NCBI GenBank assembly: GCA_033964015.1
Contig: CM066913.1
Span: forward strand, 26,128,790-26,192,789
From: Scolanthus callimorphus
Taxonomy: Eukaryota; Cnidaria; Anthozoa; Actiniaria; Edwardsiidae
DNA: 64,000 nucleotides
Direction: 5' to 3'
Positions 772 through 25,211 of the stretch are shown here, piece by piece. Numbering within the stretch: position 1 is the first letter of the stretch; each line of letters opens with the position of its first letter. A program made the position numbers and the translations under genes. Under the pieces are notes generated by a model, which ran no database searches, was not told the origin of the DNA, and saw nothing but the letters and a program-made list of their open reading frames with translations.

Positions 772-791
772 CGTGTTCAGAGGTGGTGTTC

Positions 792-3793: not shown

Positions 3794-3813
3794 CGTGTTC
3801 AGAGGTGGTGTTC

Positions 3814-5330: not shown

Positions 5331-5611
5331 AGACTCCCGCAAAGAGGCGTCTGCGCGCTCAAGCCAAACATTCCATACTGATGACGTATTTTGACCCAGA
5401 TCTGGTTCAGAAGTATTACGCAGCCAGTTGACTGTTTGATATTTAATTTTTTAGCATACAAAGCATTTTATAGCAAGGTATTCAAGTAAGACGAAAGAAG
5501 ATGCAACAAAGTTAAATGGACACGCAATTCTTCTGACCAGCTCTTGGTCAGAATACGTCAATCAAGTCTGCTTGCTTCGTAAAATGCTTTTTTTTTGCTT
5601 ACTTGTTTTAG
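5331..5611. promoter_or_regulatory. U1/U2 divergent spacer with sites A and B
   Basis: Site A is at 5389-5412, with one extra T in the right arm (GGTTCAGAA). Site B is at 5531-5553 with perfect arms TTCTGACC / GGTCAGAA around AGCTCTT. The acceptor for the next helicase copy is at 5611. Confidence 0.5.
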
Positions 5612-6497
5612 TTGGCAATGAAAGCACTGAACTACGCCCTTGCAAAAGGTACTTGTACAAGCTGGATTCACGAGCAGTTCTACACGTACCCACCCAAAGG
5701 TGACATTAAGTCATTCATTGGAACACTGGAAGGGAATGAGGCATTCAAAGATCGCCTGTGTAAAGTATGGCAAGAAGGTGAACGAGAGGTTATCTAATCC
5801 AGACAGCCAGGTCACCCGACAAATACGTGTTAAACTATGATTTAATTGAAGTTCGAAATGGATGGGTCTCTCCATTTCAAAACGGCAGTTTCTTCAACGT
5901 GCCATCAACAAGAGTGAAATTGGTCTTGTTACGCCACGAGCATACTTAGTTATGACAAAGACTCCAATGAGGATTGCCCATATTTCCGTGGGATATTGGA
6001 AAACAGCTTGCCCTAGCGACATTTCCTAGTTCTGCGAAGACTTCCTTGGCTTGTTTAGCTTCCAGGGAAAGCAGCACAAGCAAAAGGTAATAGGCGAGGT
6101 TGATTTTAAACGGAAATTTAGCAGTTTTGTAGCACTGACAACTAACGATCCACCATTCCCGGTCACCTGTATGAATGTATACTTAATCATAGCTGGCTAA
6201 AAGCAATTATGTTTTAACAAGTGCCCTGTCTTGTTGGACAAGCCAACAGAGGAAAAAAACGAGCTTGCTTGCAGCTGTATTGGAAGTTGTCAAACCCTCG
6301 AATGTGGCGCGAGTTACAAAGCAACGCTCGTTCAACAAGGCAATGATCGATGACAGCACTGAGGTAGTTATCCTAGATGAGGCAACTGCAGACATGATGG
6401 ATGTGGATGGCTGGAAATTACTCAACCAGGTGGCTGGACAGCTAATGACGTGAAGTACAGTAGTGCCAAGGGATTTATAAACAAGTATGTCTGGGTG
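5612..6497 (+). pseudogene. U2 SF3 helicase remnant, cut by assembly gap
   Basis: Exon a is 5612-6086 and exon b about 6221-6485. The acceptor before exon b is altered (aacaag instead of aacagg), and the Walker A region has extra A residues near 6250 that break the frame. Exon c and the fusion junction fall in the following N run and are absent. Confidence 0.65.
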
Positions 6498-6597
6498 NNN
6501 NNNNNNNNNNNNNNNNNNNNNNNNNNNNNNNNNNNNNNNNNNNNNNNNNNNNNNNNNNNNNNNNNNNNNNNNNNNNNNNNNNNNNNNNNNNNNNNNN
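6498..6597. other. Assembly gap (100 N)
   Basis: Exactly 100 N. The left side is helicase exon b and the right side is the middle of the recombinase gene. About 1.25 kb expected from the other units is missing, so the gap length is nominal. Confidence 0.99.
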
Positions 6598-7090
6598 GAG
6601 CACAAACTGAAGTCTATTATCTCAAATGTTAGGTCTTCTTCGTCTTCGCAGCAAAATTTCAAGAACTTCAAGCACCTGCTAACTATTTGCCGAGTTGGCG
6701 ATCACTTTTACAGCCCCCTCAGTGCCAGTAGCCACGAAAAAACTTGCTGAGCAATTTTACTAGAAATGTCATACGTAGGCATTGATCTCAAATACGCGCA
6801 GAGTTCCCAGCAGCTTCACGTTGTACAGAGGTACTCAAAGTATCTTTAGCAAGGTTGATATCAGGCTTTTCGTCAAAGTAATAAAACCAAAGATGCTTTA
6901 TCTTTACGTGTTTCTGCATCCTCGCTGTGTGGCGAATCCATCGTGTCGCATTCTTGAACTGGCAGTGAAAAAAGGCCATCCACTTCGTCTTCCTCTAGGT
7001 GAAGTCTTTTAGGCTTGAGCGAAGCATTCGGTAATTTAGCCTGCGAAAAGCCGACGCCACTTAGCGCTCGTCGAAAAAGAGACTCCCGCA
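6598..7090 (-). pseudogene. U2 tyrosine recombinase, N-terminal fragment
   Basis: Only the zinc-finger half of the recombinase gene survives, starting at the gap edge. Indels near 6695, 6730, 6838, 6945 and 6962 disrupt the frame. The catalytic half is missing from the assembly. Confidence 0.65.
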
Positions 7091-7354
7091 AAGAGGCGTC
7101 TGCGCGCTCAAGCCAAACATTCCATACTGATGACGTATTTTGACCCAGATCTGGTCAGAAGTATTACGCAGCCAGTTTGACTGTTTGATATTTCTTTTAT
7201 AGCATACAAAGCATTTTATAGAAGGATTCAAGTAAGACGAAGAAGATGCAACAAAGTTAAAATGGACACGCAATTCTTCTGACCAGTTGGTCAGAATACG
7301 TCAATCATGTCTGATGCTTCGTTAAAATGCTTTTTTTTTTGCTACTTGTTTTAG
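7091..7354. promoter_or_regulatory. U2/U3 divergent spacer with sites A and B
   Basis: Site A is at 7138-7160 with the usual sequence. Site B (7277-7296) keeps both arms, but its spacer is reduced to 4 bp (AGTT). The acceptor is at 7354. Confidence 0.45.
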
Positions 7355-8547
7355 TTGGCAATGAAGCACTGAACTACGCCCTTGCAAAAGGTACTTTGTA
7401 CAAGCTGGATTCACGAGCAGTCTACAAGTACCCAGCCCAAGGTGACAGTAAGTCATCATTGGAAACCTGGAAGGGAATGAGGCATTCAAAGATCGCTGGT
7501 AAAGTATGGCAAGAAGCGTGAACGAGAGGTTATCTAATCCAGACAGCCAGGTCATCCGACAAATACGTGTTAACTATGATTTAATTGAAGTTCGAAATGG
7601 ATGGTGTCTCTCCATTTCAAAACGGCAGTTTCTTCAACGTGCCATCAACAAGAGTGAAATGGTCTTCTTGTACGCCACGAGCATACTTTAGTATGACCAT
7701 ACATCCAATGAGGATTGCCCATATTTCCGTGGGATATTGGAAAACAGCTTGTCCCCTAGCGACATTCCCAGTTCTGCGAAGACTTCCTTGGCTTGTTTAG
7801 CTTCCAAGGAAGCAGCACAAGCAAAAGGTAATAGGCGACTTGTTTTTAAACGGAAATTTAGCAGTTTTGTAGCACTGACAACTAACCATCCACATTCCCG
7901 GTCACCTGTATGAATGTATACTTAATCATAGCTGCTAAAAGCAATTATGTTTTAACAGGTGCCCTGTCTTGTTGGACAAGCCAACAGCGGAAAAAGAGCC
8001 TTGCTTGCAGCTGTATTGGAAGTTGTCAACCCCTCGAATGTGGCGCGAGTTACAAAGCAACGCTCGTCAACAAGGCAATGATCGATGACAGCACTGAGGT
8101 AGTTATCCTAGATGAGGCAACTGCAGACATGATGGATGTGGATGGCTGGAAATTACTCACCCAGGGTGCTGGACAGCTCATAACGTGAAGTACAGTAGCG
8201 CCAAGGGATTTATAAACAAGTGTCTGGGTGATTTCTACTTCCGATGCAGACTATAACAACTAGCTAGGTGGCAGCGATTTTGCCCAGGTTCATCGCAGCA
8301 AGCCTTTGTTAACCCTTATTATCAGTAAAAGATATATTTCCTTTCTTCAGATGCCCTATGATCATTGCATCCCAGGCAGAACTGGCCTTAAAGATGTAGA
8401 CAAACCAGCCATGGATGCACGACTTAACGTCTATACGTTCCAAAGTTTAAACAATGTCGATACAGCAGCATTCCAATGGATTCGAAGTCATCCCGTTCAT
8501 TGCATCGTATATGCTATCCAGCAGGCCAAGAGGATTCCAGCCTCCAG
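7355..8547 (+). pseudogene. U3 SF3 helicase remnant
   Basis: Exon a is 7355-7827, exon b 7959-about 8218 and exon c 8351-8547. Several one-base losses occur: near 7365, 7460 and 7690; at the usual TAG site (about 7775, where an indel removes the stop but shifts frame); in Walker A (about 7995); and near 8068 and 8166. Exon c continues in frame past the 8547/8548 junction into antisense recombinase DNA, giving an open stretch to about 8731. Confidence 0.65.
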
Positions 8548-8567
8548 CGTGTTCAGAGGTGGTGTTC

Positions 8568-10080
8568 CTACATGGCGCTTATGTGCGAGTACTTCCTTTT
8601 CGGGTTCCACATCATCTGTCGAGGAGCTCTCCGATTTTCGCCTTGCTCTTGCGAGGATGTCGACTTGTCTGAAAGGCGTGCGCGAACATCGTCATCAAGT
8701 TCTGACCCCTTGTCACATTGCAGTTCCTTGAGAAAGTGTGCGCCTTGGTTGCACTTCGCGCGACCTCTGTTTTTGATAGTGTACTTTGGCGACAATAGAA
8801 CTGTTGTTTCTGGTCCTCCGAGATGGTTCTTTGCGCAGTGCTGTCCAGGTTTCTTGAACTGGCGTCTCTACAATATCGAAACGCGCGTGGGATGAACATA
8901 ATTGCCGGTTGCGTCAACACTAGCTTGCTCATCGATTCGCCTAGCTTGCTGTGTTGGCCGCCGTTTCTTGTCACCAATACGAAATCGCACGTGGGCTTTA
9001 AACGAGGTCGGATGTGAGAGATATAGCCATCCAGTACTTGCATGTTTGTATCTGTCAGATAAATAGAGTCAAACCATATTTCGCTGCAGTCTTGAACATT
9101 TTCTAATCAATAAATCCGCCGTTTGTCTTGGCCTTGATAACCATGTCAACAGTCAAATACTGATACGTCATTGGGCGAGAACCTTTGACCTTTATAAACA
9201 AAATAAAGCGCAAGGAATTTGGTAGCAAATGACAAGTCTAACGGAGATGCCACGCTTTGTTTTTCCTTGCACGATTTAAGCACGCTTTCGTAGCGTGGTA
9301 AGTGCTGCGCAACTGCTTCCAAAAGCTCTTCTAACGTCGCCCAGTGTCCTTTAGCCTCTAATGCTTCTATGTCAAGGTCGCCATTCCACTGAATGCGCAT
9401 CATTTTAGAAACTGTTCTGCGTACCTTTTTCAAGTAGACTTCCGTGGTAGAAAAATTACTTAGCACCTTTGCCGACGCTCCGTTACCTTTCTAAAATCTA
9501 TAAGTTCTGCAATTGCGTCGATGTACCCACCCGCCCAGCATGCCCAAGCTTCCATCATCCTGAAGCACGTCAATAAACTTAAAAAGCAGATTAGGAGAGC
9601 ACAAACTGAAGTCTATTATCTCAAATGTTAGGTCTTCTTCGTCTTCGCAGCAAAATTTCAAGAACTTCAAGCACCTGCTAACTATTTGCCGAGCTTGGCG
9701 ATCACTTTTACAGCCGCCTCCAGTGCAGTAGCCACGAAAAAACTTGCTGAGCAATTTTACTTGAAATGTCATACGTAGGCATTGATCTCAAATTACGCGC
9801 AGAGTTCCCAGCAGCTTCACGTTTTACAGAGGTACTCAAATTCTCTTTAGCAAGGTTGATATCAGGCTTTTCGTCAAAGTAATAAAACAAAGATGCTTTA
9901 TCTTTACGTGTTTTCTGCATCCTCGCTGTGTGGCGAATCCATCGTGTTCGCATTCTTGAACTGGACAGTGAAAAAGGCATCCACTTCGTCTTCCTCTAGG
10001 TGAAGTCTTTTAGGCTTGAGCGAAGCATTCGGTAATTTAGCCTGCGAAAGCCGACGCCACTTAGCGCTCGTCGAAAGAGA
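8568..10080 (-). pseudogene. U3 zinc-finger tyrosine recombinase
   Basis: TAG stop at 8568-8570. Lesions lie near 8735, 8803, 8870 (in the HPTR region, where bases are lost), 9480, 9530, 9555, 9725 and 9890. The region around 9146-9466 stays open and covers the box I arginine and the helical segment before it. Confidence 0.65.
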
Positions 10081-10359
10081 CTCCCGCAAAGAGGCGTCTG
10101 CGCGCTCAAGCCAAACATTCCATACTGATGACGTATTTGGACCCAGATCTGGTCAGAAGTATTACGCAGCCAGTTTGACTGTTTGATGTTTAATTTTTAT
10201 AGCATACAAAGCATTTTATATCAAGGTATTCAAGTAAGACGAAAGAAGATGCAACAAAGTTAAAATGGACACGCAATTCTTCTGACCAGCTCTTGGTCAG
10301 AACGTCAATCATGTCTGATTGCTTCGTAAAATGCTTTTTTTTTTGCTTACTTGTTTTAG
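10081..10359. promoter_or_regulatory. U3/U4 divergent spacer with sites A and B
   Basis: Site A (10136-10158) has TTTGGACC as left arm. Site B (10280-10302) has perfect 8-bp arms and the AGCTCTT spacer. The helicase acceptor is at 10359. Confidence 0.5.
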
Positions 10360-11571
10360 TTGGCAATGAAAGCACTGAACTACGCCCTTGCAAAAGGTAC
10401 TTTGTACAAGCTGGATTCACGAGCAGTCTACACGTACCAACCCAAAGGTGACATTAAGTCATTCATTGAACACTGGAAGGGAATGAGGCATTCAAAGATC
10501 GCCTGGTAAAGTATGGCAAGAAGGTGAACGAGAGGTTATCTAATCCAGACAGCCAGGTCATCCGACAAATACGGTTAACTATGATTTAATTGAAGTTCGA
10601 AATGGATGGTGTCTCTCCATTTCTAAACGGCAGTTTCTTCAACGTGCCATCAACAAGAGTGAAATTGGTCTTGTTACGCCACGAGAATACTTTAGTTATG
10701 ACCATACATCCAATGAGGATTGCCCATATTTCCGTGGGATATTGGAAAACAGCTTGTCCCCTAGCGACATTTCCTAGTTCTGCGAAGACTTCCTTGGCTT
10801 GTTTAGCTTCCAAGGAAAGCAGCACAAGCAAAAGGTAATAGGCGAGGTTGATTTTAAACGGAAATTTAGCAGTTTTGTAGCACTGACAACTAACCATCCA
10901 CATTCCACGGTCACCTGTATGAATGTATACTTAATCATAGCTTGCTAAAAGCAATTATGTTTTAACAGGTGCCCTGTCTTGTTGGACAAGCCAACAGCGG
11001 AAAAACGAGCTTGCTTGCAGCTGTATTGGAAGTTGTCAACCCCTCGAATGTGGCGCGAGTTACAAAGCAACGCTCGTTCAAACAAGGCAATGATCGATGA
11101 CAGCACTGAGGTAGTTATCCTAGATGAGGCAACTGCAGACATGATGGATGTGGATGGCTGGAAATTACTCACCCAGTGGTGGCTGGACAGCTCATGACGT
11201 GAAGTACAGTAGCGCCAAGGGATTTATAAACAAGTATGTCTGGGTGATTTCTTACTTCCGATGCAGACTATAAAACTAGCTAGATGGCAGCGATTTTGCC
11301 CAGGTTCAACGCAGCAAGCTATTGTTAAACCTTATTATCAGTAAAACATATATTTCCTTTTCTTCAGATGCCCTATGATCATTGCATCCCAGGCAGAACT
11401 GGCCTTTAAAGATGTAGACAAACCAGCCATGGATGCACGACTTAACGTCTATACGTTCCAAAGTTTAAACAATGTCGATACAGCAGCATTCCAATGGATT
11501 CGAAGTCATCGTTCAGCATCGTATATGCTATCCAGCAGGCCAAGAGGATTCCAGCCTCCAGCGTGTTCAGA
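10360..11571 (+). pseudogene. U4 SF3 helicase remnant
   Basis: Exon a is 10360-10834, exon b 10969-11233 and exon c 11368-11571. It carries the shared TAG at about 10775, an extra A near 11080 in exon b, an extra base near 11177, and small losses near 11510 in exon c. Walker A and Walker B coding are still visible. Confidence 0.65.
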
Positions 11572-11581
11572 GGTGGTGTTC

Positions 11582-13112
11582 CTACATGGCGCTTATGTGC
11601 GAGTACTTCTTTTCGGGTTCCACATCATCTGTCGAGGAGCTCTCCGATTTTTCGCCTTGCTCTTGCGAGGATGTCGACTTGTGTCTGAAAGGCGTGCGCG
11701 AACATCGTCATCAAGTTCTGACCCCTTGTCACATTGCAGTTCCTTGAGAAACGTGTGCGCCTTGGTTGCACTTCGCGCGACCTCTGTTTTTGGTAGTGTA
11801 CTTTGGCGACAATAGACCTGTGTTTCTGGTCCTCCGAGATTGTTCTTTGCGCAGTGCTGTCCAGGTTTCTTGAACTGGCCGTCTCTACAATTTGTCGAAC
11901 GCGCGTGGGATGAACATACTTGCCGGTTGCGTCAACACTAGCTTGCTCATCGATTCGCCTAGCTTGCTGTGTTGCCGCCGTTTTTTGTCACCACAATACG
12001 AAATCGCACGTGGGCTTTAAACGAGGTCGGATGTGAGAGATATAGCCATCCAGTACTTGCAATTTGTTGTGTCTGTCAGATAAATAGAGTCAAACCCATA
12101 TTTCGGTGCAGTCTTGAACATTTTCTAATCAATAAATCCGCCGTTTGTCTTGGCCTTGATAACCATGTCAACAGTCAAATACTGATACGTCATTGGGCGA
12201 GAACCTTTGACCTTTATAACAATAAAGCGCAAGGAATTGGTAGCAAATGACAAGTCTAACGGAGATGCCACGCTTTGTGTTTTCCTTGCACGATTTAAGC
12301 ACGCTTTCGTAGCGTGGTAAGTGCTGCGCAACTGCTTCCAAAAGCTCTTCTAACGTCGCCCAGTGTCCTTTAGCCTCTAATGCTTCTATGTCAAGGTCGC
12401 CATTCCACTGAATGCGCATCATTTTAGAAACTGTTCTGCGTACCTTTTTCAAGTAGACTTCCGTGGTAGAAAAATTACTTAGCACCTTTGCCGACGCTCC
12501 GTTTACCTTTCTAAAATCTATAAGTTCTGCAATTGCGTCGATGTACCCCACCCGCCCAGCATGCCCAAGCTTCCATTCATCCTGAAGCACGTCAATAAAC
12601 TTAAAAAGCAGATTAGGAGAGCACAAACTGAAGTCTATTATCTCAAATGTTAGGTCTTCTTCGTCTTCGCAGCAAAATTTCAAGAACTTCAAGCACCTGC
12701 TAACTATTTGCCGAGCTTGGCGATCACTTTTACAGCCACCTCCAGTGCCAGTTAGCCACGAAAAACTTGCTGATAATTTTACTTGAAATGTCATACGTAG
12801 GCATTGATCTCAAATTACGCGCAGAGTTCCCAGCAGCTTCACGTTTTACAGAGGTACTCAAATTCTCTTTAGCAAGGTTGATATCAGGCTTTTCGTCAAA
12901 GTAATAAAACCAAAGATGCTTTATCTTTACGTGTTTTCTGCATCCTCGCTGTGTGGCGAATCCATCGTGTTCGCATTCTTGAACTGGACAGTGAAAAAGG
13001 CCATCCACTTCGTCTTCCTCTAGGTGAAGTCTTTAGGCTTGAGCGAAGCATTCGGTAATTTAGCCTGCGAAAGCCGACGCCACTTAGCGCTCGTCGAAAG
13101 AGACTCCCGCAA
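11582..13112 (-). pseudogene. U4 zinc-finger tyrosine recombinase
   Basis: TAG stop at 11582-11584. One of the better-preserved middle sections: 12794-12168 stays open for about 208 codons up to the box I region, and 13008-12730 is open across the zinc finger. Breaks lie near 12765 (bases lost), 12225 and 12280, plus the shared break near 11935. An indel near 12060 alters the segment before the catalytic HxxR. Confidence 0.7.
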
Positions 13113-13381
13113 AGAGCGTCTGCGCGCTCAAGCCAAACATTCCATACTGATGACGTATTTTGACCCAGATCTGGTCAGAAGTATTACGCAGCCAGTTTGA
13201 CTGTTTGATGTTTAATTTTTATAGCATACAAAGCATTTTATAGCAAGGTATTCAAGTAAGACGAAAGAAGATGCAACAAAGTTAAAATGGACACGCAATT
13301 CTTCTGACCAGCTCTTGGTCAGAATACGTCAATCATGTCTGATTGCTTCGTAAAATGTTTTTTTTTTTGCTTACTTTTTAG
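13113..13381. promoter_or_regulatory. U4/U5 divergent spacer with sites A and B
   Basis: Site A is at 13158-13180 and site B at 13302-13324, both in consensus form with 7-bp spacers. A long T run precedes the helicase acceptor near 13381. Confidence 0.5.
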
Positions 13382-14250
13382 TGGCAATGAAAGCACTGAA
13401 CTACGCCCTTGCAAAAGTACTTTGTACAAGCTGGATTCACGAGCAGTCTACACGTACCAACCCAAAGGTGACATTAAGTCATTCATTGGAACACTGGAAG
13501 GGAATGAGGCATTCAAAGATCGCCTGGTAAAGTATGGCAAGAAGGTGAACGAGAGGTATCTAATCCAGACAGCCAGGTCATCCGACAAATACGTGTTAAC
13601 TATGATTTAATTGAAGTTCGAAATGGATGGTGTCTCTCCATTTCAAAACGGCAGTTTCTTCAACGTGCCATCAACAAGAGTGAAATTGGTCTTGTTACGC
13701 CACGAGCATACTTTAGTTATGACCATACATCCAATGAGGATTGCCCATATTTCCGTGGGATATTGGAAAACAGCTTGTCCCCTAGCGACATTTCCTAGTT
13801 CTGCGAAGACTTCCTTGGCTTGTTTAGCTTCCAAGGAAAGCAGCACAAGCAAAAGGTAATAGGCGAGGTTGATTTTAAACGGAAATTTAGCAGTTTTGTA
13901 GCACTGACAACTAACCATCCACATTCCACGGTCACCTGTATGAATGTATACTTAATCATAGCTTGCTAAAAGCAATTATGTTTTAACAGGTGCCTGTCTT
14001 GTTGGACAAGCCAACAGCGGAAAAACGAGCTTGCTTGCAGCTGTATTGGAAGTTGTCAACCCTCGAATGTGGCGCGAGTTACAAAGCAACGCTCGTTCAA
14101 CAAGGCAATGATCGATGACAGCACTGAGGTAGTTATCCTAGATGAGGCAACTGCAGACATGATGGATGTGGATGGCTGGAAATTACTCACCCAGGGTGGC
14201 TGGACAGCTCATGACGTGAAGTACAGTAGCGCCAAGGGATTTATAAACAA
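13382..14250 (+). pseudogene. U5 SF3 helicase, exons a and b
   Basis: Exon a is 13382-13854 and exon b 13990-14250. Exon b starts with a lost base near 13995 and loses another near 14062, but Walker B and B' coding are clean. The shared TAG is at about 13797. The following intron is split by a 4-kb insertion at TA 14299-14300; exon c resumes at 18356. Confidence 0.7.
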
Positions 14251-14300
14251 GTATGTCTGGGTGATTTCTTACTTCCGATGCAGACTATAACAACTAGCTA

Positions 14301-14582
14301 CAATGCCGGACAAAATTAGTTGTCGCGTCTATCACAAATAGCTGATTTTGGTTACCCTATACTAGTAAATTATTTTTCTTCCTAATACAATATCACGCGA
14401 ACCCCCCTTCCCCCCATTTCAATGTTGGAGGTAACAGTCATCAAATTCCGAGGATGACTTTTCGCGGTAAACAACATTGTAGTGGGGGGAGGGGGAGGGA
14501 AGATGAGGGGACCGGTGTGGTACATGGAACCCCTATTTACTGGAAGGTTCAAAATAGGCGACAACAATTTTGTCCCGCATTG
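14301..14582. mobile_element. TIR element copy 1 (MITE-like, TA target)
   Basis: It starts caatgccggacaaaatta and ends with the near reverse complement (ttttgtcccgcattg), so the terminal inverted repeats are ~25 bp with few mismatches. TA is on both sides. No coding capacity. G-rich and C-rich runs lie inside. Confidence 0.8.
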
Positions 14583-14745
14583 TATTTAGTACGTTTTCTG
14601 TTTTTATGAAAAAGAAAGAAAGAGCCATGGACTGATGTATAGGTGGTGTATTAGACTCGACAGGATTTGTATAGAACGGTAATTGGAATTTCCGTAATTG
14701 CTTAAACAACAATGGAATTATCGATAATTAAGGGCAATTTAGTCA

Positions 14746-15868
14746 ATGCGCGCGAGCAAGGAATGGCGCACGAGGAAAATGGCGTTCAAAGCAAAAATTA
14801 GGCCAGAAAAAGAGCTTATCTACGTTTTTCTTCGATGTCACGGTGGAGTGAAATCTTCAGTGCTGGCTAAAAGGTATTGTGTGTCACAGCGGACTATCCA
14901 GCGGATTGCTAAAGAACAATTTACAGGACGCATTTCACAGTCAAAAGAAAGAAAACCCAGGAAGGAAAAATGAATGCCGTGCGGCCGCGAAAATTAGCGC
15001 CACGTGATGTGCGACGATTAGTACGCGAAATAGACAATCTTCGGGAAAAAGAAGTTCGTTTACCGTCAAACGCCTTATGCAAGTTTCAAAAATACCGGCA
15101 AATATGGTTTCAATACGAACTGTTCGTAGGTATTTAAACAGAAATAAGTACTACTCACTTCCAGCCGTAAAAAGGGGGTATTAGACAAGGATGCTTGCAA
15201 TAAACGGATGGCATTTGCGCGAATGGTGAAACGAAAGTACGATGCCTCAGTCTGGACGCAGAAGTTGCCTTTTTTCTGGACGGGGTGAGTTTTGTGTTTA
15301 AGAGAAATCCTCGTGCACAAGCAGCGTCACCGAAAGCGCGAATTTGGAGGAAAAAGGAGGAGGGCTTGTCTCGTAATTGCACAGCGAAAGGACACAAGGT
15401 GGGGACAGGAGGGAACTAGTACGACTAATGGTAGCTATAACATACAGAGAGGGTGTTGTACTGTGCGACCAGTATGAAAAACTTAATGGGCCTTACTTCG
15501 CGGACTTAGTGAAAAGAGAATTTAGTGACACATTTCGGCGAGCCAAGAAACAGAGAACTAAGTTATGGGTACAAGATAGTGCTGAAGCGAGGAGGGCTTT
15601 GAGAAAAGTAAGAGCGAAACTGTTATCTATTCCACCGAAGTCTCCTGATATTAATGTAATCGAGAACTTTTTCCATTTAGTGAGGAGAGAGCTGGATTCT
15701 GACGCTTTGCATAAAAATATTGAGAGAGAAACTTACACTGAATTTGCAAAGCGAGTGTAAGATACAATTTATGGAATACCGAAAAACCTAATAGATAAAA
15801 CTATAGAAAGTTTACCTGAAAGAATTGACGGAATTACCAAAAGTAAAGGACAACGGCTTAAATATTAA
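14746..15868 (+). pseudogene. Tc1/mariner-type transposase (broken)
   Basis: The N-terminal stretch 14746-14973 encodes a helix-turn-helix-like domain (VLAKRYCVSQRTIQRIAKE). Downstream, in shifted frames, are pieces typical of the DDE/D catalytic core: FFLDGVSFVFKR near 15270-15300 (first Asp), LWVQDS near 15565-15582 (second Asp), and SPDINVIENFFH near 15640-15675 (third acidic residue, IEN). The C-terminal part is open over 15377-15760. A stop near 14971, at least three frameshifts before 15380 and a TAA near 15759 make it inactive. It cuts and pastes DNA at TA sites if intact. Whether it mobilised the flanking TIR elements is unknown, though the TA targets agree. Confidence 0.75.
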
Positions 15869-16269
15869 GAAATGAAATGTAAAAATGCGTTTTCTTTAAT
15901 TCCGAAAAAATAACCGGATATGACGTAATGTAGGCCCGTGCGCTTGGACGCGCGCACGGCTGTACTATCGTACACGTGACTATTGAACATTGATTCATTC
16001 ATATATTTATCAATTACTTTATAAGTAATAAATATGTATTTACAACAGCATTCGCTTATTTACTTCGGTCCTGGCGATGAGAATACTGTACGGGAGTGAA
16101 CGCCAAAACGCCAACGGGTTACACGGGTAACGCTTCCAACAAAGAAAAAGTAACTAGAGGTCTTAATCTTTTTCAATATAGTGTTACCCGTGGTGTTACC
16201 CGTCGCCAGTCTTTCTCGGTTTATTTTGGCTATGGCGGGAGAATTAATCGCGCAAAGCACCTGGCACAT
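15869..16269. other. Intergenic, with short GC hairpin
   Basis: No gene recognised. A hairpin with arms 15936-15943 and 15952-15959 (CCGTGCGC / GCGCACGG) lies just after the transposase remnant. The stretch 16090-16269 may hold the decayed 3' end of the Rep gene on the - strand. Confidence 0.4.
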
Positions 16270-17042
16270 GGAGACATTTCTTTGTGTTGTGCTTCTGGTA
16301 TTGGCGATGAAAGTAAAATGTTTTCCATCGCACAGACATCATATCAGTTTCTCTCTGATCAACTGCGCCGCCTTTTATGTAAACAAACGGGTTTTTCCTG
16401 TACAGAATATGGGAGTATCCTGATCGAACACAAGATCCTTACTATAATACGTTTTGGGAGCTGGTAGATGAACCAGCTGACCCTCTAAAAGTAATAGAAA
16501 ATCATGCCATGGGATAACGTTTGCAGACCAACGGAAGTCGTTTAGGAAAAGACTCTGATTCCTGGGCTCCCACCCAGGCAAAAGTCGTGCTCGCTGGGTT
16601 ACAGAATGTTGCATAAATCAGAGTTAGCGGCATCAAAATAAAGGTTTTCGCACAGTTTGTAGGGCCCACTATCATCACATTGCGGTATTTCCCTCGACCT
16701 TTTTCTAAAAGATCCCGTACAGAGTCGGCAAAATACGAGGTCTGAATCCCATTCGTGTGTAAAACCTCTTTAGCACTTTGAAGCCACTGACCATTACAAC
16801 CCTCGACGCAAGGAGAGTCTTTGCCCTATTAGCAATTCCATTCTAGTTTGTTTAGAACGACGAAGCTTCTCGTTAGCGGTATGCAAGTCCCACGCTGTTT
16901 CAATGATTTCATTGACTGCTTTTGCTCCGCGATTCACAATAAACTCGGCAATATCAGTTTTTCCCTCAACTCCTGTGAATGGGCGAATGCTAACAGTTCC
17001 AGTCTGCTTTTAATGCCTTTTTCCACAATAATTCGAGACAGT
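16270..17042 (-). pseudogene. SF3 helicase half of HUH Rep (broken)
   Basis: This continues the minus-strand gene downstream of the HUH domain, in several frames. A Walker A-like VGPTNCAKT is encoded around 16646-16675, with Ala replacing the usual Gly before Lys. Further on, 16614-16375 encodes FLNDFRW (Walker B position) and PIFCTGK (motif C position). HUH followed by SF3 is the layout of CRESS-DNA virus Rep and parvovirus NS1 proteins, and of genome-resident relatives. Stops and frameshifts near 16370, 16600, 16820 and 16940 make it a fossil. Confidence 0.6.
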
Positions 17043-17666
17043 TCATAAGAACTTAATCTCCGCTTTTTCGTTTTGGGCCTTTTCTCTGTCTTCATCGCCA
17101 TCGGAATCGGCAATGTCGTCTTCCCGTTTTCGATTGTTCTGGCCTGCACTGTCACTAAGCTTATTGCTGTCTGCCTTCGCCATTAGCGCCACGCTCGCAC
17201 GAGTTGTCTTTGGCCTTTCAAAGTCGCGTAAATCGGGATGTTTGTCACTTTCTATATAACCATCGTCACACTTAGTCACATATTTCCAAGCACTATAATA
17301 ATTACAATGGATGCTTGAAAAATTTACAGAAATTCCATGAACTTCTTCCAGTCTTCGTTTGGCACTAAGCCATCGCTGATTACGGTCAAGTTTTATTGCC
17401 ATGTGATAGTGTTGACCTCCTCCCATGTGATGCTCTCTGCAGCAACACCACTGAACAACATTTGATGCAGTATCCTTGAACGAGTTTACAACAGCATAGG
17501 CGAAAGTTTCACGATGTGGAAACTTTTCAATGTTCGCTTGACTATAAGTTATTAAGTATACTTTTCTCACTTCTTTCGAGGCCAGTGTTTTCGACTGCTC
17601 ACAGCTGCACTCGCACAACCCACTACTTGAACTAGAATCGGAAGCATTCGCCGGAATTTCAGCCAT
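17043..17666 (-). CDS. HUH endonuclease domain of a Rep-like protein
   Basis: An open stretch of 207 codons from ATG 17666. It has three rolling-circle motifs in order: YLITYSQ (motif I, about residues 37-43), GGQHYHMAIKL (motif II, the His-hydrophobic-His metal site, about 83-93) and AWKYVTK (motif III, Tyr as presumed nicking residue with downstream Lys, about 125-131). These proteins nick an origin and stay bound through Tyr. A Ser-rich, Cys-rich N-terminus precedes it and an acidic/basic linker with KRED follows. The end of this stretch is a frame break, not the natural end: helicase coding continues in other frames. Spacing of motifs resembles CRESS-type Reps; family assignment is tentative. 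Confidence 0.7.
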   Translation of the reverse strand: MAEIPANASDSSSSSGLCECSCEQSKTLASKEVRKVYLITYSQANIEKFPHRETFAYAVVNSFKDTASNVVQWCCCREHHMGGGQHYHMAIKLDRNQRWLSAKRRLEEVHGISVNFSSIHCNYYSAWKYVTKCDDGYIESDKHPDLRDFERPKTTRASVALMAKADSNKLSDSAGQNNRKREDDIADSDGDEDREKAQNEKAEIKFL

Positions 17667-17986
17667 TTTCTGACAAAAACAGCACAGAAGTATTCGTTCA
17701 ACCTTCTATCACCCAACGAATGCATTGAGACCTCAGCAAAAGTCCCTGAGGAAGGCGAAGGCAACCGTTACCATGGGCAACGCACGTGCCGTGGAGCGAA
17801 AGCTATTTTGGTTTTCTCTTCCACGAGAAAAAAATCGCCTTTTTTGCCCGTCATGCTGGAAATTAATAGAGTGACAATAGAAAAACCGAGTTGCATTTTA
17901 ACTTCCATCGGTTAACTTTCGATAAAACTAATTACAGCGGTTTCCTATAGAGAATTTTCGAAAAATACACAAGAAAGTGTCAAATA
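17667..17986. other. Upstream region of the HUH Rep
   Basis: No gene seen. This is the 5' flank of the Rep remnant, ending at TA before the second TIR element. AT-rich, with runs such as gagaaaaaaatcgcc; no clear promoter assigned. Confidence 0.4.
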
Positions 17987-18267
17987 CAATGCCGGACAAA
18001 ATTAGTTGTCGCGTCTATCACAAATAGCTGATTTTTGGTTACCCTTCACTAGTAATTATTTTTCTTCCTAATACAATATCACGCGAACCCCCCTTCCCCC
18101 CATTTCAATGTTGGAGGTAACAGTCATCAAATTCCGAGGATGACTTTTCGCGGTAAACAACATTGTAGTGGGGGAGGGGAGGGAAGATGAGGGGACCGGT
18201 GTGGTACATGGAACCCCTATTTACTGGACAGGTTCAAAATAGGCGACAACAATTTTGTCCCGCATTG
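17987..18267. mobile_element. TIR element copy 2 (MITE-like, TA target)
   Basis: Near-identical to 14301-14582 and in the same orientation, with a few indels (for example in the G run near 18175). Flanked by TA at 17985-17986 and 18268-18269. Confidence 0.8.
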
Positions 18268-18355
18268 TAGATGGCAGCGATTTTGCCCAGGTTCATCGCA
18301 GCAAGCTATTTGTTAACCCTTATTATCAGTAAAACATATATTTCCTTTTCTTCAG

Positions 18356-18553
18356 ATGCCCTATGATCATTGCATCCCAGGCAGAACTGGCCTTTAAAGA
18401 TGTAGACAAACCAGCCATGGATGCACGACTTAACGTCTATACGTTCCAAAGTTTAAACAATGTCGATACAGCAGCATTCCAATGGATTCGAAGTCATCCC
18501 GTTCATTGCATCGTATATGCTATCCAGCAGGCCAAGAGGATTCCAGCCTCCAG
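18356..18553 (+). pseudogene. U5 SF3 helicase exon c
   Basis: The acceptor at 18355 is followed by motif C (CPMIIASQ) and the post-motif segment ending KRIPAS at the deletion junction 18553/18554. Reading then continues into antisense recombinase DNA to a stop near 18806. Identical in layout to U0 exon c. Confidence 0.7.
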
Positions 18554-18573
18554 CGTGTTCAGAGGTGGTGTTC

Positions 18574-20100
18574 CTACATGGCGCTTATGTGCGAGTACTT
18601 CCTTTTCGGGTTCCACATCATCTGTCGAGGAGCTCTCCGATTTTTCGCCTTGCTCTTGCGAGGATGTCGACTTGTCTGAAAGGCGTGCGCGAACATCGTC
18701 ATCAAGTTCTGACCCCTTGTCACATTGCAGTTCCTTGAGAAACGTGTGCGCCTTGGTTGCACTTCGCGCGACCTCTGTTTTTGGTAGTGTACTTTGGCGA
18801 CAATAGACCTGTGTTTCTGGTCCTCCGAGATTGTTCTTTGCGCAGTGCTGTCCAGGTTTCTTGAACTGGCCGTCTCTACAATTTGTCGAACGCGCGTGGG
18901 ATGAACATACTTGCCGGTTGCGTCAACACTAGCTTGCTCATCGATTCGCCTAGCTTGCTGTGTTGGCCGCCGTTTTTTGTCACCAATACGAAATCGCACG
19001 TGGGCTTTAAACGAGGTCGGATGTGAGAGATATAGCCATCCAGTACTTGCATATTTGTATCTGTCAGATAAATAGAGTCAAACCCATATTTCGCTGCAGT
19101 CTTGAACATTTTCTAATCAATAAATCCGCCGTTTGTCTTGGCCTTGATAACCATGTCAACAGTCAAATACTGATACGTCATTGGGCGAGAACCTTTGACC
19201 TTTATAAACAAATAAAGCGCAAGGAATTTGGTAGCAAATGACAAGTCTAACGGAGATGCCACGCTTTGTTTTTCCTTGCACGATTTAAGCACGCTTTCGT
19301 AGCGTGGTAAGTGCTGCGCAACTGCTTCCAAAAGCTCTTCTAACGTCGCCCAGTGTCCTTTAGCCTCTAATGCTTCTATGTCAAGGTCGCCATTCCACTG
19401 AATGCGCATCATTTTAGAAACTGTTCTGCGTACCTTTTTCAAGTAGACTTCCGTGGTAGAAAAATTACTTAGCACCTTTGCCGACGCTCCGTTTACCTTT
19501 CTAAAATCTATAAGTTCTGCAATTGCGTCGATGTACCCCACCCGCCCAGCATGCCCAAGCTTCCATTCATCCTGAAGCACGTCAATAAACTTAAAAAGCA
19601 GATTAGGAGAGAACAAACTGAAGTCTATTATCTCAAATGTTAGGTCTTCTTCGTCTTCGCAGCAAATTTCAAGAACTTCAAGCACCTGCTAACTATTTGC
19701 CGAGCTTGGCGATCACTTTTACAGCCACCTCCAGTGCCAGTTAGCCACGAAAAAACTTGCTGAGCAATTTTACTTGAAATGTCATACGTAGGCATTGATC
19801 TCAAATTACGCGCAGAGTTCCCAGCAGCTTCACGTTTTACAGAGGTACTCAAATTCTCTTTAGCAAGGTTGATATCAGGCTTTTCGTCAAAGTAATAAAA
19901 CCAAAGATGCTTTATCTTTACGTGTTTTCTGCATCCTCGCTGTGTGGCGAATCCATCGTGTTCGCATTCTTGAACTGGACAGTGAAAAAGGCCATCCACT
20001 TCGTCTTCCTCTAGGTGAAGTCTTTTAGGCTTGAGCGAAGCATCGGTAATTTAGCCTGCGAAAGCCGACGCCACTTAGCGCTCGTCGAAAGAGACTCCCG
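18574..20100 (-). pseudogene. U5 zinc-finger tyrosine recombinase (best-preserved short-unit copy)
   Basis: TAG stop at 18574-18576. Open blocks 19999-19640 (zinc finger onward) and 19685-19113 (middle to box I) overlap across a single lost A near 19665. 19109-18876 and 18999-18574 overlap across the shared one-base loss near 18924. Apart from those two breaks it reads through C2H2, box I (GSRPMTYQ), HPTR and IVAKVHYQK. A lost base near 20043 affects the extreme N-terminus. Confidence 0.75.
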
Positions 20101-20377
20101 CAAAGAGGCGTCTGCGCGCTCAAGCCAAACATTCCATACTGATGACGTATTTTGACCCAGATCTGGTCAGAAGTATTACGCAGCCAGTTTGACTGTTTGA
20201 TGTTTAATTTTTATAGCATACAAAGCATTTTATAGCAAGGTATTCAAGTAAGACGAAAGAAGATGCAACAAAGTTAAAATGGAAACGCAATTCTTCTGAC
20301 CAGCTCTTGGTCAGAATACGTCAATCATGTCTGATTGCTTCGTAAAATGCTTCTTTTTTTTTGCTTACTTGTTTTAG
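20101..20377. promoter_or_regulatory. U5/U6 divergent spacer with sites A and B
   Basis: Site A is at 20150-20172 (TTTTGACC-CAGATCT-GGTCAGAA) and site B at 20294-20316 (TTCTGACC-AGCTCTT-GGTCAGAA). Both are intact with 7-bp spacers. The T-rich tract and acceptor for the U6 helicase end at 20377. Confidence 0.5.
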
Positions 20378-21543
20378 TTGGCAATGAAAGCACTGAACTA
20401 CGCCCTTGCAAAAGGTTCTTTGTACAAGCTGGATTCACGAGCAGTCTACACGTACCAACCCAAAGGTGACATTAAGTCATTCATTGGAACACTGGAAGGG
20501 AATGAGGCATTCAAAGATCGCCTGGTAAAGTATGGCAAGAAGGTGAACGAGAGTTTATCTAATCCAGACAGCCAGGTCATCCGACAAATACGTGTTAACT
20601 ATGATTTAATTGAAGTTCGAAATGGATGGTGTCTCTCCATTTCAAAACGGCAGTTTCTTCAACGTGCCATCAACAAGAGTGAAATTGGTCTTGTTACGCC
20701 ACGAGCATACTTTAGTTATGACCATACATCCAATGAGGATTGCCCATATTTCCGTGGGATATTGGAAAACAGCTTGTCCCCTAGCGACATTTCCTAGCTC
20801 TGCGAAGACTTCCTTGGCTTGTTTAGCTTCCAAGGAAAGCAGCACAAGCAAAAGGTAATAGGCGAGGTTGATTTTAAACGGAAATTTAGCAGTTTTGTAG
20901 CACTGACAACTAACCATCCACATTCCACGGTCACCTGTATGAATGTATACTTAATCATAGCTTGCTAAAAGCAATTATGTTTAACAGGTGCCCTGTCTTG
21001 TTGGACAAGCCAACAGCGGAAAAACGAGCTTGCTTGCAGCTGTATTGGGAGTTGTCAACCCCTCGTTCAACAAGGAAATGATCGATGACAGCACTGAGGT
21101 AGTTATCCTAGATGAGGCAACTGCAGACATGATGGATGTGGATGGCTGGAAATTACTCACCCAGGGTGGCTGGACAGCTCATGACGTGAAGTACAGTAGC
21201 GCCAAGGGATTTATAAACAAGTATGTCTGCGTGATTTCTTACTTCCGATACAAACTATAACAACTAGCTAGATGGCAGCGATTTTGCCCAGGTTCAACGC
21301 AGCAAGCTATTTGTTAACCCTTATTATCAGTAAAACATATATTTCCTTTTCTTCAGATGCAATATGATCATTGCATCCCAGGCAGAACTGGCCTTTAAAG
21401 ATGTAGACAAACCAGCCATGGATGCACGACTTAACGTCTATACGTTCCAAAGTCGATACAGCAGCATTCCAATGGATTCGAAGTCATCCCGTTCATTGCA
21501 TCGTATATGCTATCCAGCAGGCCAAGAGGATTCCAGCCTCCAG
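20378..21543 (+). pseudogene. U6 SF3 helicase, 5' exons
   Basis: Exon a is 20378-20854 (ATG 20384), open for about 138 codons to the shared TAG at 20795-20797; coding resumes after it in the same frame (FCEDFLGLFS). Exon b is 20988-21220, with Walker A GQANSGKT and Walker B VVILDEAT, but it lacks 30 nt present in every other unit (in frame, between short CTCG repeats). Exon c starts at 21357 and lacks 11 nt near 21453, which shifts frame. At 21543 it passes into unique sequence instead of antisense recombinase DNA. Parts of the natural 3' helicase exon may lie just after, but the transition to the next exon is not clear. Confidence 0.7.
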
Positions 21544-21590
21544 TTTTGGATCATTAAGGAGTATTAACTCCAACATAGAATTATTTGCAG

Positions 21591-22628
21591 TGTGTTGCTA
21601 AAATGAAGGAGATGGCAGATGCTGCCGTACAGCGTGAGCAAGATATGTTCCAAGACATAGTCACGTCGAATCGGGCTCAGCTTATGGCCTTGGGAATGGC
21701 CAGCGAAGACGAAGCGCGAGAGGTCATTACAGAACTATTTCAGCCTCTACCTGAACACATCGAGGAAAGGAGAATGGAGCAATTAAGAGAGCAATGAAGG
21801 GAACAGGAGGAGGAGGGAAGAAAGAGAGAAGAAGAGGAGTTGAAACACGTCTTTAAAACTCCATGGCTCATAGAGAAGGAAAAGGAGCTTTGCGGGTAGG
21901 TATTATATTGTTACACCTCCCGCACAGGACATGTACAGTACTACAAGGGGGACTTGATCAAAATTAATTATGTTTATGTTACATCTCGTTTATAGGTGTG
22001 TGCATTGGGGATTAGATATAATTTAGGCCTAAAGTTTCTGGTTCTGTTTGTTTTCAGATACGTGCGAGAAATGGAGAAAGAGAAGGTGGAGGACAGAAAG
22101 ATGGCTCTAATTAACATGATTGAAATCACTGAGCACAAGCTCAAGCTGTTCCATGAAAATGAAGGTACCGCCAACAACAGGGAAGCCTTGCGGGAGAGGC
22201 GCAAGCTGTATGTGATTCTTGGTCTCGTGGCGCCAGAGAATGCTTCTAATATCGACAACTTACACTCTCGATTATGGTTCATTCCACAACCAGTAACACC
22301 ACCAAGAAACGACGACGATGACGACTTCATGCCTCCCACGCCAAGCGGAAACCCTTCTGCAGTTATCGACTATACAACCGGAGTAGCGACACCAAGAAGG
22401 AGCCAGACCTTCAACCCAGAAGTTGCACCCCCAACCCTTAGCTGGGTTCCACGGCCATTGGAGGACTACAGCCTTCCAAGCACATGGGGAGGAATTCCAG
22501 TGAACACCCCCACTCGACCAGCAAAAAGAAAGTCACAGGGAAAGCAAAAGGCTGGAAAGCGTGGCAAAAGTCTCTCAGGACAGAAAACAATATTGAACTT
22601 TTTTTTCCAGTCAGTAGAGTCTATATAA
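21591..22628 (+). pseudogene. Coiled-coil protein with NLS-like stretch and C-terminal PIP box
   Basis: Two exons, 21591-21895 (after an AG acceptor) and 22058-22628 (after ttttcag), join in frame. The N-terminal half is charged and helical (MKEMADAAVQREQDMF; later EEEGRKREEEEL), suggesting coiled coil. A central acidic DDDDD stretch is followed by a Pro-rich region, then a basic run (RPAKRKSQGKQKAGKRGK) like an NLS. Near the C-terminus is QKTILNFF (22581-22604), which fits the PCNA-interacting peptide consensus Q-x-x-I/L/M-x-x-F-F. TGA at 21795-21797 interrupts exon 1. It may be the natural C-terminal part of the helicase or a separate gene. PCNA binding is inferred from the motif only. Confidence 0.6.
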
Positions 22629-22699
22629 ATAAATTGAGACGACCTTGAAAATCACGTGTGTGCGAGAACAACGTTTCTTTAGCCTGAATGCTATAGACC

Positions 22700-22782
22700 A
22701 GGGAAGGAAGAAAAATAGCAGGCAAAAAGCAAGCTATTTTTTGTCACTCTGTACTCCCAACACTGATTTTTCTTCCTTCCCT
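22700..22782. repeat. 17-bp perfect inverted repeat between convergent genes
   Basis: Arms 22700-22716 (agggaaggaagaaaaat) and 22766-22782 are exact reverse complements with a 49-bp loop. It sits between the 3' ends of the PIP-box gene (+) and the cyclin-box ORF (-). A shared 3'-end structure or a binding site is possible; the role is unknown. Confidence 0.7.
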
Positions 22783-22974
22783 AAACAAAATAGCAAATGT
22801 TAACTGGATCTCCAAAATACCACAACCTCTTAGCGCATCATATGTTTAATTTGATTTCCGTCAAAAACAAGAACTATTTGAATCTAGAATCGCTTAATAA
22901 AGGGCATTACTGATATTAAAGTGTCTGATAATGGTATATGTCTTCACAGTCGTGCAAAGTAACCGATTCTTCAG

Positions 22975-23337
22975 TTAAAGGCCTAGAATGTCCAAATGTG
23001 CCATGGGCCTCCAATTTACTGACTCCAGAACGCGAATCTCTTCCTAGATAATGTCCGTTCTTGGCACCGACAGAGAAAGCACGTCTATGAGAAAGCTGTT
23101 TCTTCTAAAGTCGCTGCTGTCCAGTTTTACGGCAAAGAAGAGACAGGCCAATATAACTTCTCTGAGAGTTGACCTTTTCCTGTTCGACGTCCTGTTTAAA
23201 TGGCGCCAAAGCAAACTTTCCGCCACATAGGCCGTCTCTTTAGAAAAGTTGAGTTCACAAATTTCTTGCAAAAGCTGTCCAGCAAACTTCATGTCCCGTA
23301 CGCTAAGCTCCGGATGTTTGTCCACTAAGCTTTCCAT
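22975..23337 (-). pseudogene. Cyclin-box protein (one in-frame stop)
   Basis: The minus-strand ORF runs from ATG 23337 to TAA 22975, 120 codons, with one in-frame TAG at 23044-23046. The sequence reads like a cyclin N-box: a first helix (QLLQEICELNFSKETAYVAE), LLWRHL at the D-R-F-L position, the core helix TLREVILACLFFAVKLDSS (compare the ACLFIAAKYEE pattern of cyclins), and EEIRVLESVNWRP after the TAG at the usual IL-x-x-L-N-W position. Cyclins activate CDKs; viral cyclins push cells into S phase. It is shorter than cellular cyclins (one box). Found only in U6, convergent with the PIP-box gene. The call rests on pattern recognition, not a search. Confidence 0.6.
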
Positions 23338-23339
23338 TG

Positions 23340-23639
23340 TCACTCGCGTTGTTCTCGTCTTGTAAAAAAAGAGAGCAAACGCTTTCTATGACGGTATTTT
23401 ATGGAAGCGCATTTTACCCAGCCTTCTCCTTGATTGCTCTCCCTGTGTCCTATTGGTTCATGATTGCTCACTTCTTGCCATATGAGGGAAATCTGCGCAC
23501 TGCACGGCATAGCAATTGTTGGATGTTCTTCGTTTTTTAAAACGAACTCGGGGTCTCCGAGGATGGCCTTCCATTGTCCAAGCCGTATCGTTTTAGCCCG
23601 ACTTTCAATATCTGTCCTCTTCGAGAGAAAATGGAACAT
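23340..23639 (-). CDS. Small ORF, unrecognised (99 aa)
   Basis: Open from ATG 23639, between the recombinase stop (23688) and the cyclin-box ATG (23337), on the same strand. It contains LGQWKAILGDPEFVLKNEE and several Cys/His. No domain recognised. It may be real U6-specific coding or chance; nothing in the other units corresponds, as they lack this region. Confidence 0.25.
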   Translation of the reverse strand: MFHFLSKRTDIESRAKTIRLGQWKAILGDPEFVLKNEEHPTIAMPCSAQISLIWQEVSNHEPIGHRESNQGEGWVKCASIKYRHRKRLLSFFTRREQRE

Positions 23640-23687
23640 TTTTCCTTCTTTGTGACATTGCTGTTTTCGTGTTCAGAGGAGGTGTTC

Positions 23688-25134
23688 CTACATGGCGCTT
23701 ATGTGCGAGTACTTCCTTTTCGGGTTCCACATCATCGCCTTGCTCTTGCGAGGATGTCGACTTGTCTGAAAGGCGTGCGCGAACATAGTCATCAAGTTCT
23801 GACCCCTTGTCACATTGCAGTTCCTTGAGAAACGTGTGCGCCTTGGTTGCACTTCGCGCGACCTCTGTTTTTGGTAGTGTACTTTGGCGACAATAGAACT
23901 GTGTTTCTGGTCCTCCGAGATGGTTCTTTGCGCAGTGCTGTCCAGGTTTCTTGAACTGGCCGTCTCTACAATTTGTCGAACGCGCGTGGGATGAACATAC
24001 TTGCCGGTTGCGTCAACACCAGCTTGCTGTGTTGGCCGCCGTTTCTTGTCACCAATACGGATGTGAGAGATATAGCCATCCAGTACTTGCATGTTTGTAT
24101 CTGTCAGATAAATAGAGTCAAACCCATATTTCGCTGCAGTCTTGAACATTTTCTAATCAATAAATCCGCCGTTTGTCTTGGCCTTGATAACCATGTCAAC
24201 AGTCAAATACTGATACGTCATTAGGCGAGAACCTTTGACCTTTATAAACAAATAAAGCGCAAGGAATTTGGTAGCAAATGACAAGTCTAACGGAGATGCC
24301 ACGCTTTGTTTTTCCTTGCACGATTTAAGCACGCTTTCGTAGCGTGGTAAGTGCTGCGCAACTGCTTCCAAATGCTCTTCTAACATCACCCAGTGTCCTT
24401 TAGCCTCTAATGCTTCTATGTCAAGGTCGCCATTCCACTGAATGCGCATCATTTTAGAAACTGTTCTGCGTACCTTTTTCAAGTAGACTTCCGTGGTAGA
24501 AAAATTACGCCGACGCTCCGTTTACCTTTCTAAAATCTATACGTTCTGCAATTGCGTCGATGTACCCCACCCGCCCAGCATGCCCAAGCTTCCATTCATC
24601 CTGAAGCACGTCAATAAACTTAAAAAGCAGATTAGGAGAGCACAAACTGAAGTCTATTATCTCAAATGTTATGTCTTCTTCGTCTTCGCAGCAAAATTTC
24701 AAGAACTTCAAGCACCTGCTAACTATTTGCCGAGCTTGGCGATCACTTTTACAGCCACCTCCAGTGCCAGTTAGCCACGAAAAAACTTGCTGTGCAATTT
24801 TACTTGAAATGTCATACGTAGGCATTGATCTCAAATTACGCGCAGAGTTCCCAGCAGCTTCACGTTTTACAGAGTTACTCAAATTATCTTTAGCAAGGTT
24901 GATATTAGGCTTTTCGTCAAAGTAATAAAACCAAAGATGCTTTATCGTTACGTGTTTTCTGCATCCTCGCTGTGTGACGAATCCATCGTGTTTGCATTCT
25001 TGAACTGGACAGTGAAAAAGGCCATCCACTTCGTCTTCCTGTAGGTGAAGTCTTTTAGGCTTGAGCGAAGCATTCGGTAATTTAGCCTGCGAAAGCCGAC
25101 GCCACTTAGCGCTCGTCGAAAGAGACTCCCGCAA
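23688..25134 (-). pseudogene. U6 zinc-finger tyrosine recombinase
   Basis: Open from 25134 to 24505 (about 209 codons, with the C2H2 finger FHCPVQECKHDG then H-x4-H, and the middle region), then broken by an 11-nt loss near 24507. 24482-24153 carries box I as GSRLMTYQ (Pro to Leu) and the helix before it. 24149-23688 carries HPTR and HSSIVAKVHYQK but has lost segments near 24056, 24019 and 23735 relative to the other units. The start is unclear: 25134 is a TTG, and no ATG precedes the finger in that frame, so an upstream exon or a later start is possible. Confidence 0.7.
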
Positions 25135-25211
25135 AGAGGCGTCTGCGCGCTCAAGCCAAACATTCCATACTGATGACGTATTTTGACCCAGATCTGGTCA
25201 GAAGTATTACG
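25135..25211. promoter_or_regulatory. U6 site A and right end of array
   Basis: Site A is intact at 25181-25203. Homology to the other units continues only through gtattacg (25204-25211) and then switches to ttcccgggcggga. Site B and the rest of the spacer are absent, so the array ends 8 bp beyond a candidate recombination site. Confidence 0.6.

Follow-up and report, generated by a model that had tools for sequence, protein, structure and literature searches.

By the general view, the replication of DNA transposons is left to the host. Pogo-type transposases carry a PCNA-interacting protein (PIP) box, and the cyclins of herpesviruses, which are large viruses, contain two boxes each. Polinton-like viruses and virophages resemble viruses in having capsid genes, their genomes are larger, and we know of no cyclin or PIP box among them. 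Animal Cryptons, which are also known from cnidarians, are described in the available text of PMC3212892 as having no terminal repeats and a recombinase without a C-terminal domain, while the tyrosine recombinases of endogenous crustacean nimaviruses are microsatellite-specific according to the available part of PMC10871703. The locus examined here lies in a 64,000-nucleotide stretch of Scolanthus callimorphus (assembly GCA_033964015.1, contig CM066913.1, positions 26,128,790 to 26,192,789, forward strand), referred to as the window. The window probably contains a rearranged piece of an autonomous DNA transposon, about 9 kb long when complete, which would act like an integrating plasmid and carries genes for a helicase-like protein with a PIP box, a cyclin and a likely tyrosine recombinase.

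The element resembles the Cryptons (CryptonA and CryptonI) in having a likely tyrosine recombinase as mobility gene, but differs in its 12-bp inverted arms, 8-bp core, C-terminal Myb domain, helicase/PIP gene and cyclin; the words 'helicase' and 'Myb' are absent from the main text of the Crypton paper (PMC3212892). Because of the inverted arms, the Myb domain and the two further genes the element was not filed as a Crypton. It shares with the nimaviruses a (here likely) tyrosine recombinase with a C2H2 zinc-binding domain, insertion into simple repeats and possible concatemers; however, the pemoniviruses, one nimavirus genus, measure 300–360 kb in the available part of PMC10871703 compared to about 9 kb for the element, for which no structural gene was found in the open reading frames (ORFs) scanned with Pfam. 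The combination of a probable superfamily 3 (SF3) helicase with a likely tyrosine recombinase recalls Polinton-like viruses and virophages, both terms occurring in the available text of PMC4642659, and the predicted use of a replication clamp recalls bacterial insertion sequence transposases, which use the beta clamp (PMC4549789, available part). In the pogo and insertion sequence systems it is the transposase that binds the clamp, whereas here the motif is found in a helicase-type protein. The element also differs from the herpesviruses in that its cyclin is a single box of 119 residues within a transposon. A literature search, with Repbase, bioRxiv and most subscription papers outside its reach, returned no published description of this gene set, and some of the families may be catalogued in Repbase under another name.

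Gene content and linkage of the element

The genome (597 Mb, 302 contigs) was searched separately with each gene, and the counts given below refer to the matches listed: 96 rows for the recombinase (95 scored of 607 candidates), 150 of 367 for the cyclin and 150 of 332 for the helicase. Three families were compared, A (loci L042 and L043), B (L044) and C, the window's own (L009–L016). Gene order, arms, cores, arrays and open frames were established directly. From the helicase end the element comprises an arm, the helicase gene in forward orientation, the cyclin and recombinase genes in reverse orientation and a second arm. A cyclin on the same strand was located 86–608 bases 3' of 69 of the 96 recombinase rows, and a convergent helicase exon, with starts 2.2–4.2 kb apart, was found at 65; a helicase was nearby only in another arrangement at two. 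The recombinase gene at C2:2006720/2007623 is counted as two rows in both linkage tallies, and the cyclin and helicase of family A fall outside the matches listed, yet are present in its DNA (L042, L043). As the separate recombinase, cyclin and helicase searches agree on places and order in most listed rows, they support the view that the helicase, recombinase, PIP box and cyclin together make up the genes of a single mobile element.

The original prediction had placed these genes together in a single 4.9-kb unit of the window, and all of them were recovered there from ORFs, a Cyclin_N match and recombinase homologs. The central part of the unit, used as a query, detected 14 places in the genome, and in all eight dispersed copies examined, which were chosen by this centre, it was flanked by the helicase and the recombinase, with an insertion separating the flanking gene in one (L015/L029). 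The possibility that the centre is an unrelated insertion, which the original prediction had named as a refutation, was rejected, because these eight copies as well as families A and B hold it between both genes. Spacings within arrays were mostly 8.3–9.4 kb, with some of 10–11 kb and one of 7.6 kb; in one tandem array of whole units, four copies were spaced 8844, 8846 and 8845 bases apart. Many listed copies within a family share equal scores and open frames, suggesting that movement of the element was probably recent.

The helicase protein of the element has approximately 1000 residues, with a P-loop/SF3-like part, a coiled coil and a C-terminal PIP box. In family B the gene contains five exons with GT-AG introns joined in one frame of 988 codons from a putative start, giving 284 residues, a 320-residue P-loop part and about 385 residues ending in the PIP box; the PIP-box gene, originally taken as separate, is the last exon of this gene. 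At some other places, listed helicase matches lie within open frames of 936–1028 residues, as expected of an intronless gene, compared to the at least five exons of family B, a difference that may reflect intron gain or loss within one element type. SF3 helicases contain, in order, Walker A, Walker B, B', motif C and an arginine finger. The motifs GxxNSGKT and DEA are present and conserved here, and the stretch taken as motif C shows Q where N is usual. The match to DUF5906 covered positions 1–105 of 114 with an E value of 2.4e-4 (1.9e-4 for the family C copy in L013), in both cases under the curated cut-off; Parvo_NS1 gave an E value of 0.13, MMR_HSR1, a GTPase family, passed its cut-off in two exons taken singly, and a sequence search of the PDB with the helicase gave nothing relevant. 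A 330-bp helicase stretch in L009 (3419–3748) has the opposite orientation from its counterparts in the remaining dispersed copies that were compared. Two points slightly lower confidence in the autonomous transposon as the explanation: the SF3 assignment, as read from these motifs, is probable rather than proven, and two of the copies, L011 and L012, appear to be one locus that was duplicated.

The consensus of a PIP box is Q-x-x-[ILM]-x-x-[FY]-[FY]. The corresponding motifs are QKTILNFF in family C, QSKLTRFF in family B and KGRITIFF in family A, where K replaces Q. The motif is located ahead of the stop in the window and in eight of 12 other loci scanned, across three families. The last-exon frames compared were just 27–39% identical across families, each with a terminal PIP-like motif, through which the protein would bind PCNA.

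The intact recombinase has approximately 590 residues with a Myb domain at the C-terminus. No stop was present in 77 of the 96 listed rows, and many frames had 580–622 residues. The listed homologs include proteins of the named organisms Nematostella, Porites, Actinostola and Oculina. Tyrosine recombinases carry the catalytic motif R...HxxR...H/W...Y in this order. Among 24 homologs H402 and R405 were invariant, and R307, H432 and Y441 were present in at least 90% (P0151 numbering); the order of the motif is therefore present by our own assignment of these residues. Pfam and PDB searches with the recombinase gave matches confined to the Myb part or at chance level, and no relatives were confirmed in the collection of genome contigs. 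As there was no match to a curated family, the protein is described as one that likely works like a tyrosine recombinase, with family membership likely rather than proven.

The cyclin of the element has 119 residues with a complete cyclin box, in which the five-helix fold is present, and is convergent to the helicase gene. The match to Cyclin_N (cut-off 23 bits) was 25.6 bits for the ORF in the window (E 1e-5) and 36.7, 38.3 and 35.3 bits for families C, A and B, respectively. No stop was present in 138 of the 150 listed cyclin rows, and 13 proteins of other contigs were 54–63% identical. The ratio of nonsynonymous to synonymous substitution (dN/dS) between families was 0.14 (B/C) and 0.39 (A/C) for the cyclin, with A/B saturated, and 0.095–0.099 for the recombinase, values which are rough because synonymous sites between families are near or past saturation throughout. 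The protein is predicted to bind and activate a host cyclin-dependent kinase (CDK). The fold matches used in this analysis were obtained with the second-look aligner alone.

Both cyclins and PIP boxes belong to the equipment of host cells, and the cyclin of the element has the N-terminal box only, as would suit genes captured as passengers by a recombinase transposon whose other genes are irrelevant to its replication. This is quite improbable given that the cyclin is linked to most listed recombinases, is free of stops in most listed rows, is conserved in three families with the dN/dS values above and has the 13 relatives. The locus might alternatively be the remnant of a small anthozoan DNA virus, the helicase, cyclin and integrase being its early genes and the structural genes having been lost or left unrecognised. 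We regard this as unlikely, as the copies whose genes are open measure about 9 kb and offer little space for further genes. The only Pfam match named for a capsid among the ORFs scanned, RNA_capsid, was at chance level (E 0.055, 13.9 bits against a cut-off of 27) and fell in the coiled-coil exon. Viral contigs gave no confirmed relative of the recombinase or helicase in pattern searches, which reach close relatives only.

Terminal sites and insertion targets

A tyrosine recombinase site consists of two inverted arms of 11–13 bp around a core of 6–8 bp (PMC3212892, available text). The ends of the element are 12-bp inverted arms, and the joint between units of an array has the form arm, 8 bp, arm. 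The recombinase-end arm is TTTTGGGGAATG and the helicase-end arm is CATTCCCCAAAA, which is replaced by CATTCCCCAAAT in the single copies of family C. When the genome was scanned for TTTTGGGGAATG-N-CATTCCCCAAAA, with 2–14 bases allowed between them, 35 sites were obtained and the spacer was exactly 8 bases in all 35; since the scan accepted exact arms only, it is the core length alone that counts as a finding. A control scan of the whole genome with reversed arms gave no sites. A listed recombinase follows 21 of the 35 sites at a distance of 1281–1385 bases (one of the two C2:2006720/2007623 rows being used in this tally) and stands on neither side of 13, which include the junctions of the duplicated locus L011/L012. 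The cores are specific to the families, being GTAATAAT in A, TATATCAC in B and GTAATAAC in C.

The array of family A has (AAT)n on both flanks. Four of the seven helicase-side ends of family C lie in (AAT)n (two of these being the duplicated locus) and two do not, the arm of the remaining one being out of view; six of the seven recombinase-side ends begin with GTAATAA, counting the duplicated locus twice, and one begins otherwise. As background, an AAT hexamer was present in 1.8% of 14-bp stretches elsewhere in the window (706/38600). At two ends of family B ...CATCAC and TATATCAC were found. This is the layout expected of a tyrosine recombinase site whose target shares part of the core, use by the enzyme being putative. 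Directly beside the family A array, positions 2632–4086 of L042 contain frames that by reading resemble a reverse transcriptase.

The arrays could in principle have arisen solely by unequal crossing-over or replication slippage, with integration left to other machinery and the recombinase doing other work, for example multimer resolution. The array in the window is of that kind, having been amplified in place. Genome-wide, however, the exact 8-bp core recurs at all 35 junctions, 21 of them at a near-fixed distance from a listed recombinase, and the cores differ among families A, B and C, so that this origin for the arrays in general appears unlikely.

The array and neighbouring features of the window

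Positions 1–25211 of the window are a tandem array of units of about 3.0 kb and a single unit of 5.03 kb (20181–25211), which is distinguished by an extra centre (21544–23667) absent from the shorter units; one deletion joint is common to the five short units in the window. The array starts outside the window on its left side, near C3:26114336 (C3 being the contig that bears the window), and leftward of the window it passes into the ordinary left part of the element. Similarity between the 5.03-kb unit and the dispersed copies ends at 20327 and 25083 (query 147–4903 of 20181–25211), so both true ends of the element are missing, while the dispersed copies run past both borders. The copy on C1 is longer by about 2.6 kb on the left and about 0.9 kb on the right, up to ends common to other copies. 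As the unit stops short of full copies, a miniature inverted-repeat transposable element (MITE) lies between units and the ordinary left part continues leftward, the array represents one old element copy whose interior was multiplied in place. Judged from the joint, insertion of the MITE into the recombinase gene most likely preceded the amplification. The features are collected in Table 1.

The original prediction took the 4.9-kb unit as the element, a view in which the spacer would be the origin of replication. The unit does repeat and holds all genes; nevertheless the spacer is a truncated foldback MITE found on many contigs and full copies, mostly 8.3–9.4 kb with recombinase-type end sites of their own, pass both borders, which leaves this interpretation hardly any credibility. 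The divergence of helicase and recombinase described earlier appears only where array units meet at the MITE, the genes of the element being convergent. The genes were said to be all broken, and the window's own copy is indeed dead, but the statement does not extend to the genome, where most listed recombinase and cyclin rows are free of stops. The foldback MITE has long inverted arms and a length of about 365 bp (40 copies scored of 974 first-look candidates). Its TGACC..GGTCA palindromes were considered as recombination sites and rejected as MITE sequence, and CMITE, as described in the available part of PMC2872659, was rejected as an account of the repeats because its terminal inverted repeats differ and its target is TTAA.

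One array unit contains a foreign block of 3970 bp between two 286-bp mariner-type MITE copies that are 97% identical, inserted at a TA. By reading, it contains pieces of a mariner-like transposase, and its HUH Rep ORF (17043–17666, reverse strand) matched PF23343 with an E value of 5.7e-4, under the cut-off, with a P-loop piece downstream; the block looks like a composite transposon carrying Rep. This ORF was rejected as the N-terminus of the helicase, as it sits within the foreign block.

Table 1. Features of the window, with positions counted from its first base.
Feature	Position	Strand	Basis or remark
Rest of array, other units of about 3.0 kb, centre absent	1..20180		
Foreign block in array unit (mariner-type, TA target), outside the element	14299..18269		
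'Spacer', truncated foldback MITE	20051..20323		palindromes TGACC..GGTCA part of MITE
Family C copy, inner part: helicase/PIP gene (+), cyclin (-), recombinase (-)	20327..25083		similarity extent against dispersed copies
P-loop helicase-like gene	20378..21543	+	
Helicase exon before the P-loop; frame ends at a stop	20378..20797	+	ORF; exon alignment with families A, B and C
Helicase exon with Walker A and Walker B (GQANSGKT...VVILDEAT)	20988..21260	+	
Further helicase exon, with a stretch we take to be motif-C-like and arginine-finger-like	21359..21543	+	sequence reading; equivalent family B exon joins in frame
Coiled-coil/PIP exons	21585..22628	+	
Coiled-coil exon, piece, same helicase gene	21585..21797	+	ORF; matches to genome copies
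Last helicase exon: coiled coil, PIP box near C-terminus	21996..22628	+	ORF
PIP box QKTILNFF	22581..22604	+	sequence
Cyclin gene, one internal stop	22978..23343	-	C3:26151767-26152132; open ORF part 23044-23343
Recombinase 3' end (Myb-domain stretch), degraded	23340..23666	-	read against C-terminal Myb part of P0027, L013
Tyrosine-recombinase gene pieces	23688-24149, 24153-24482, 24505-25083	-	homologs; relatives of about 590 residues; fold match of a relative
Remnant of same foldback MITE; array terminates here	25084..25211		

Proposed cycle and implications

In the proposed cycle the recombinase would join both arms to form a circle, which the helicase would unwind while contacting PCNA and the host fork through its PIP box, and host polymerases would carry out replication. 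The cyclin would activate a host CDK, so that replication takes place in S phase or S phase is brought on. The resulting circles or concatemers would enter either (AAT)n-like repeats or a resident copy by recombination at the 8-bp core. Circularisation and S-phase replication are what we infer from the gene set; reintegration at the core would explain both the solo copies in (AAT)n and the head-to-tail arrays, in which one core separates neighbouring units. On balance we favour the view that the element represents a new class, a capsid-less self-replicating chromosomal plasmid with a PCNA-tethered helicase, its own cyclin and lox-like 12-8-12 insertion into microsatellites, which is active in living anthozoans.

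The near-identical copies with open genes make each of the proposed steps testable. If the proposal is correct, the lox-like sites, with shared arms and 8-bp cores specific to each family, would represent microsatellite-targeting systems of site-specific recombination that occur naturally in eukaryotes, and would account for the arrays in which full-length elements stand in tandem. With a helicase tethered to PCNA and a cyclin under selection, copying of the element would be coupled directly to the cell cycle, as in small DNA viruses, and the element would form a bridge between animal transposons, plasmids and viruses.

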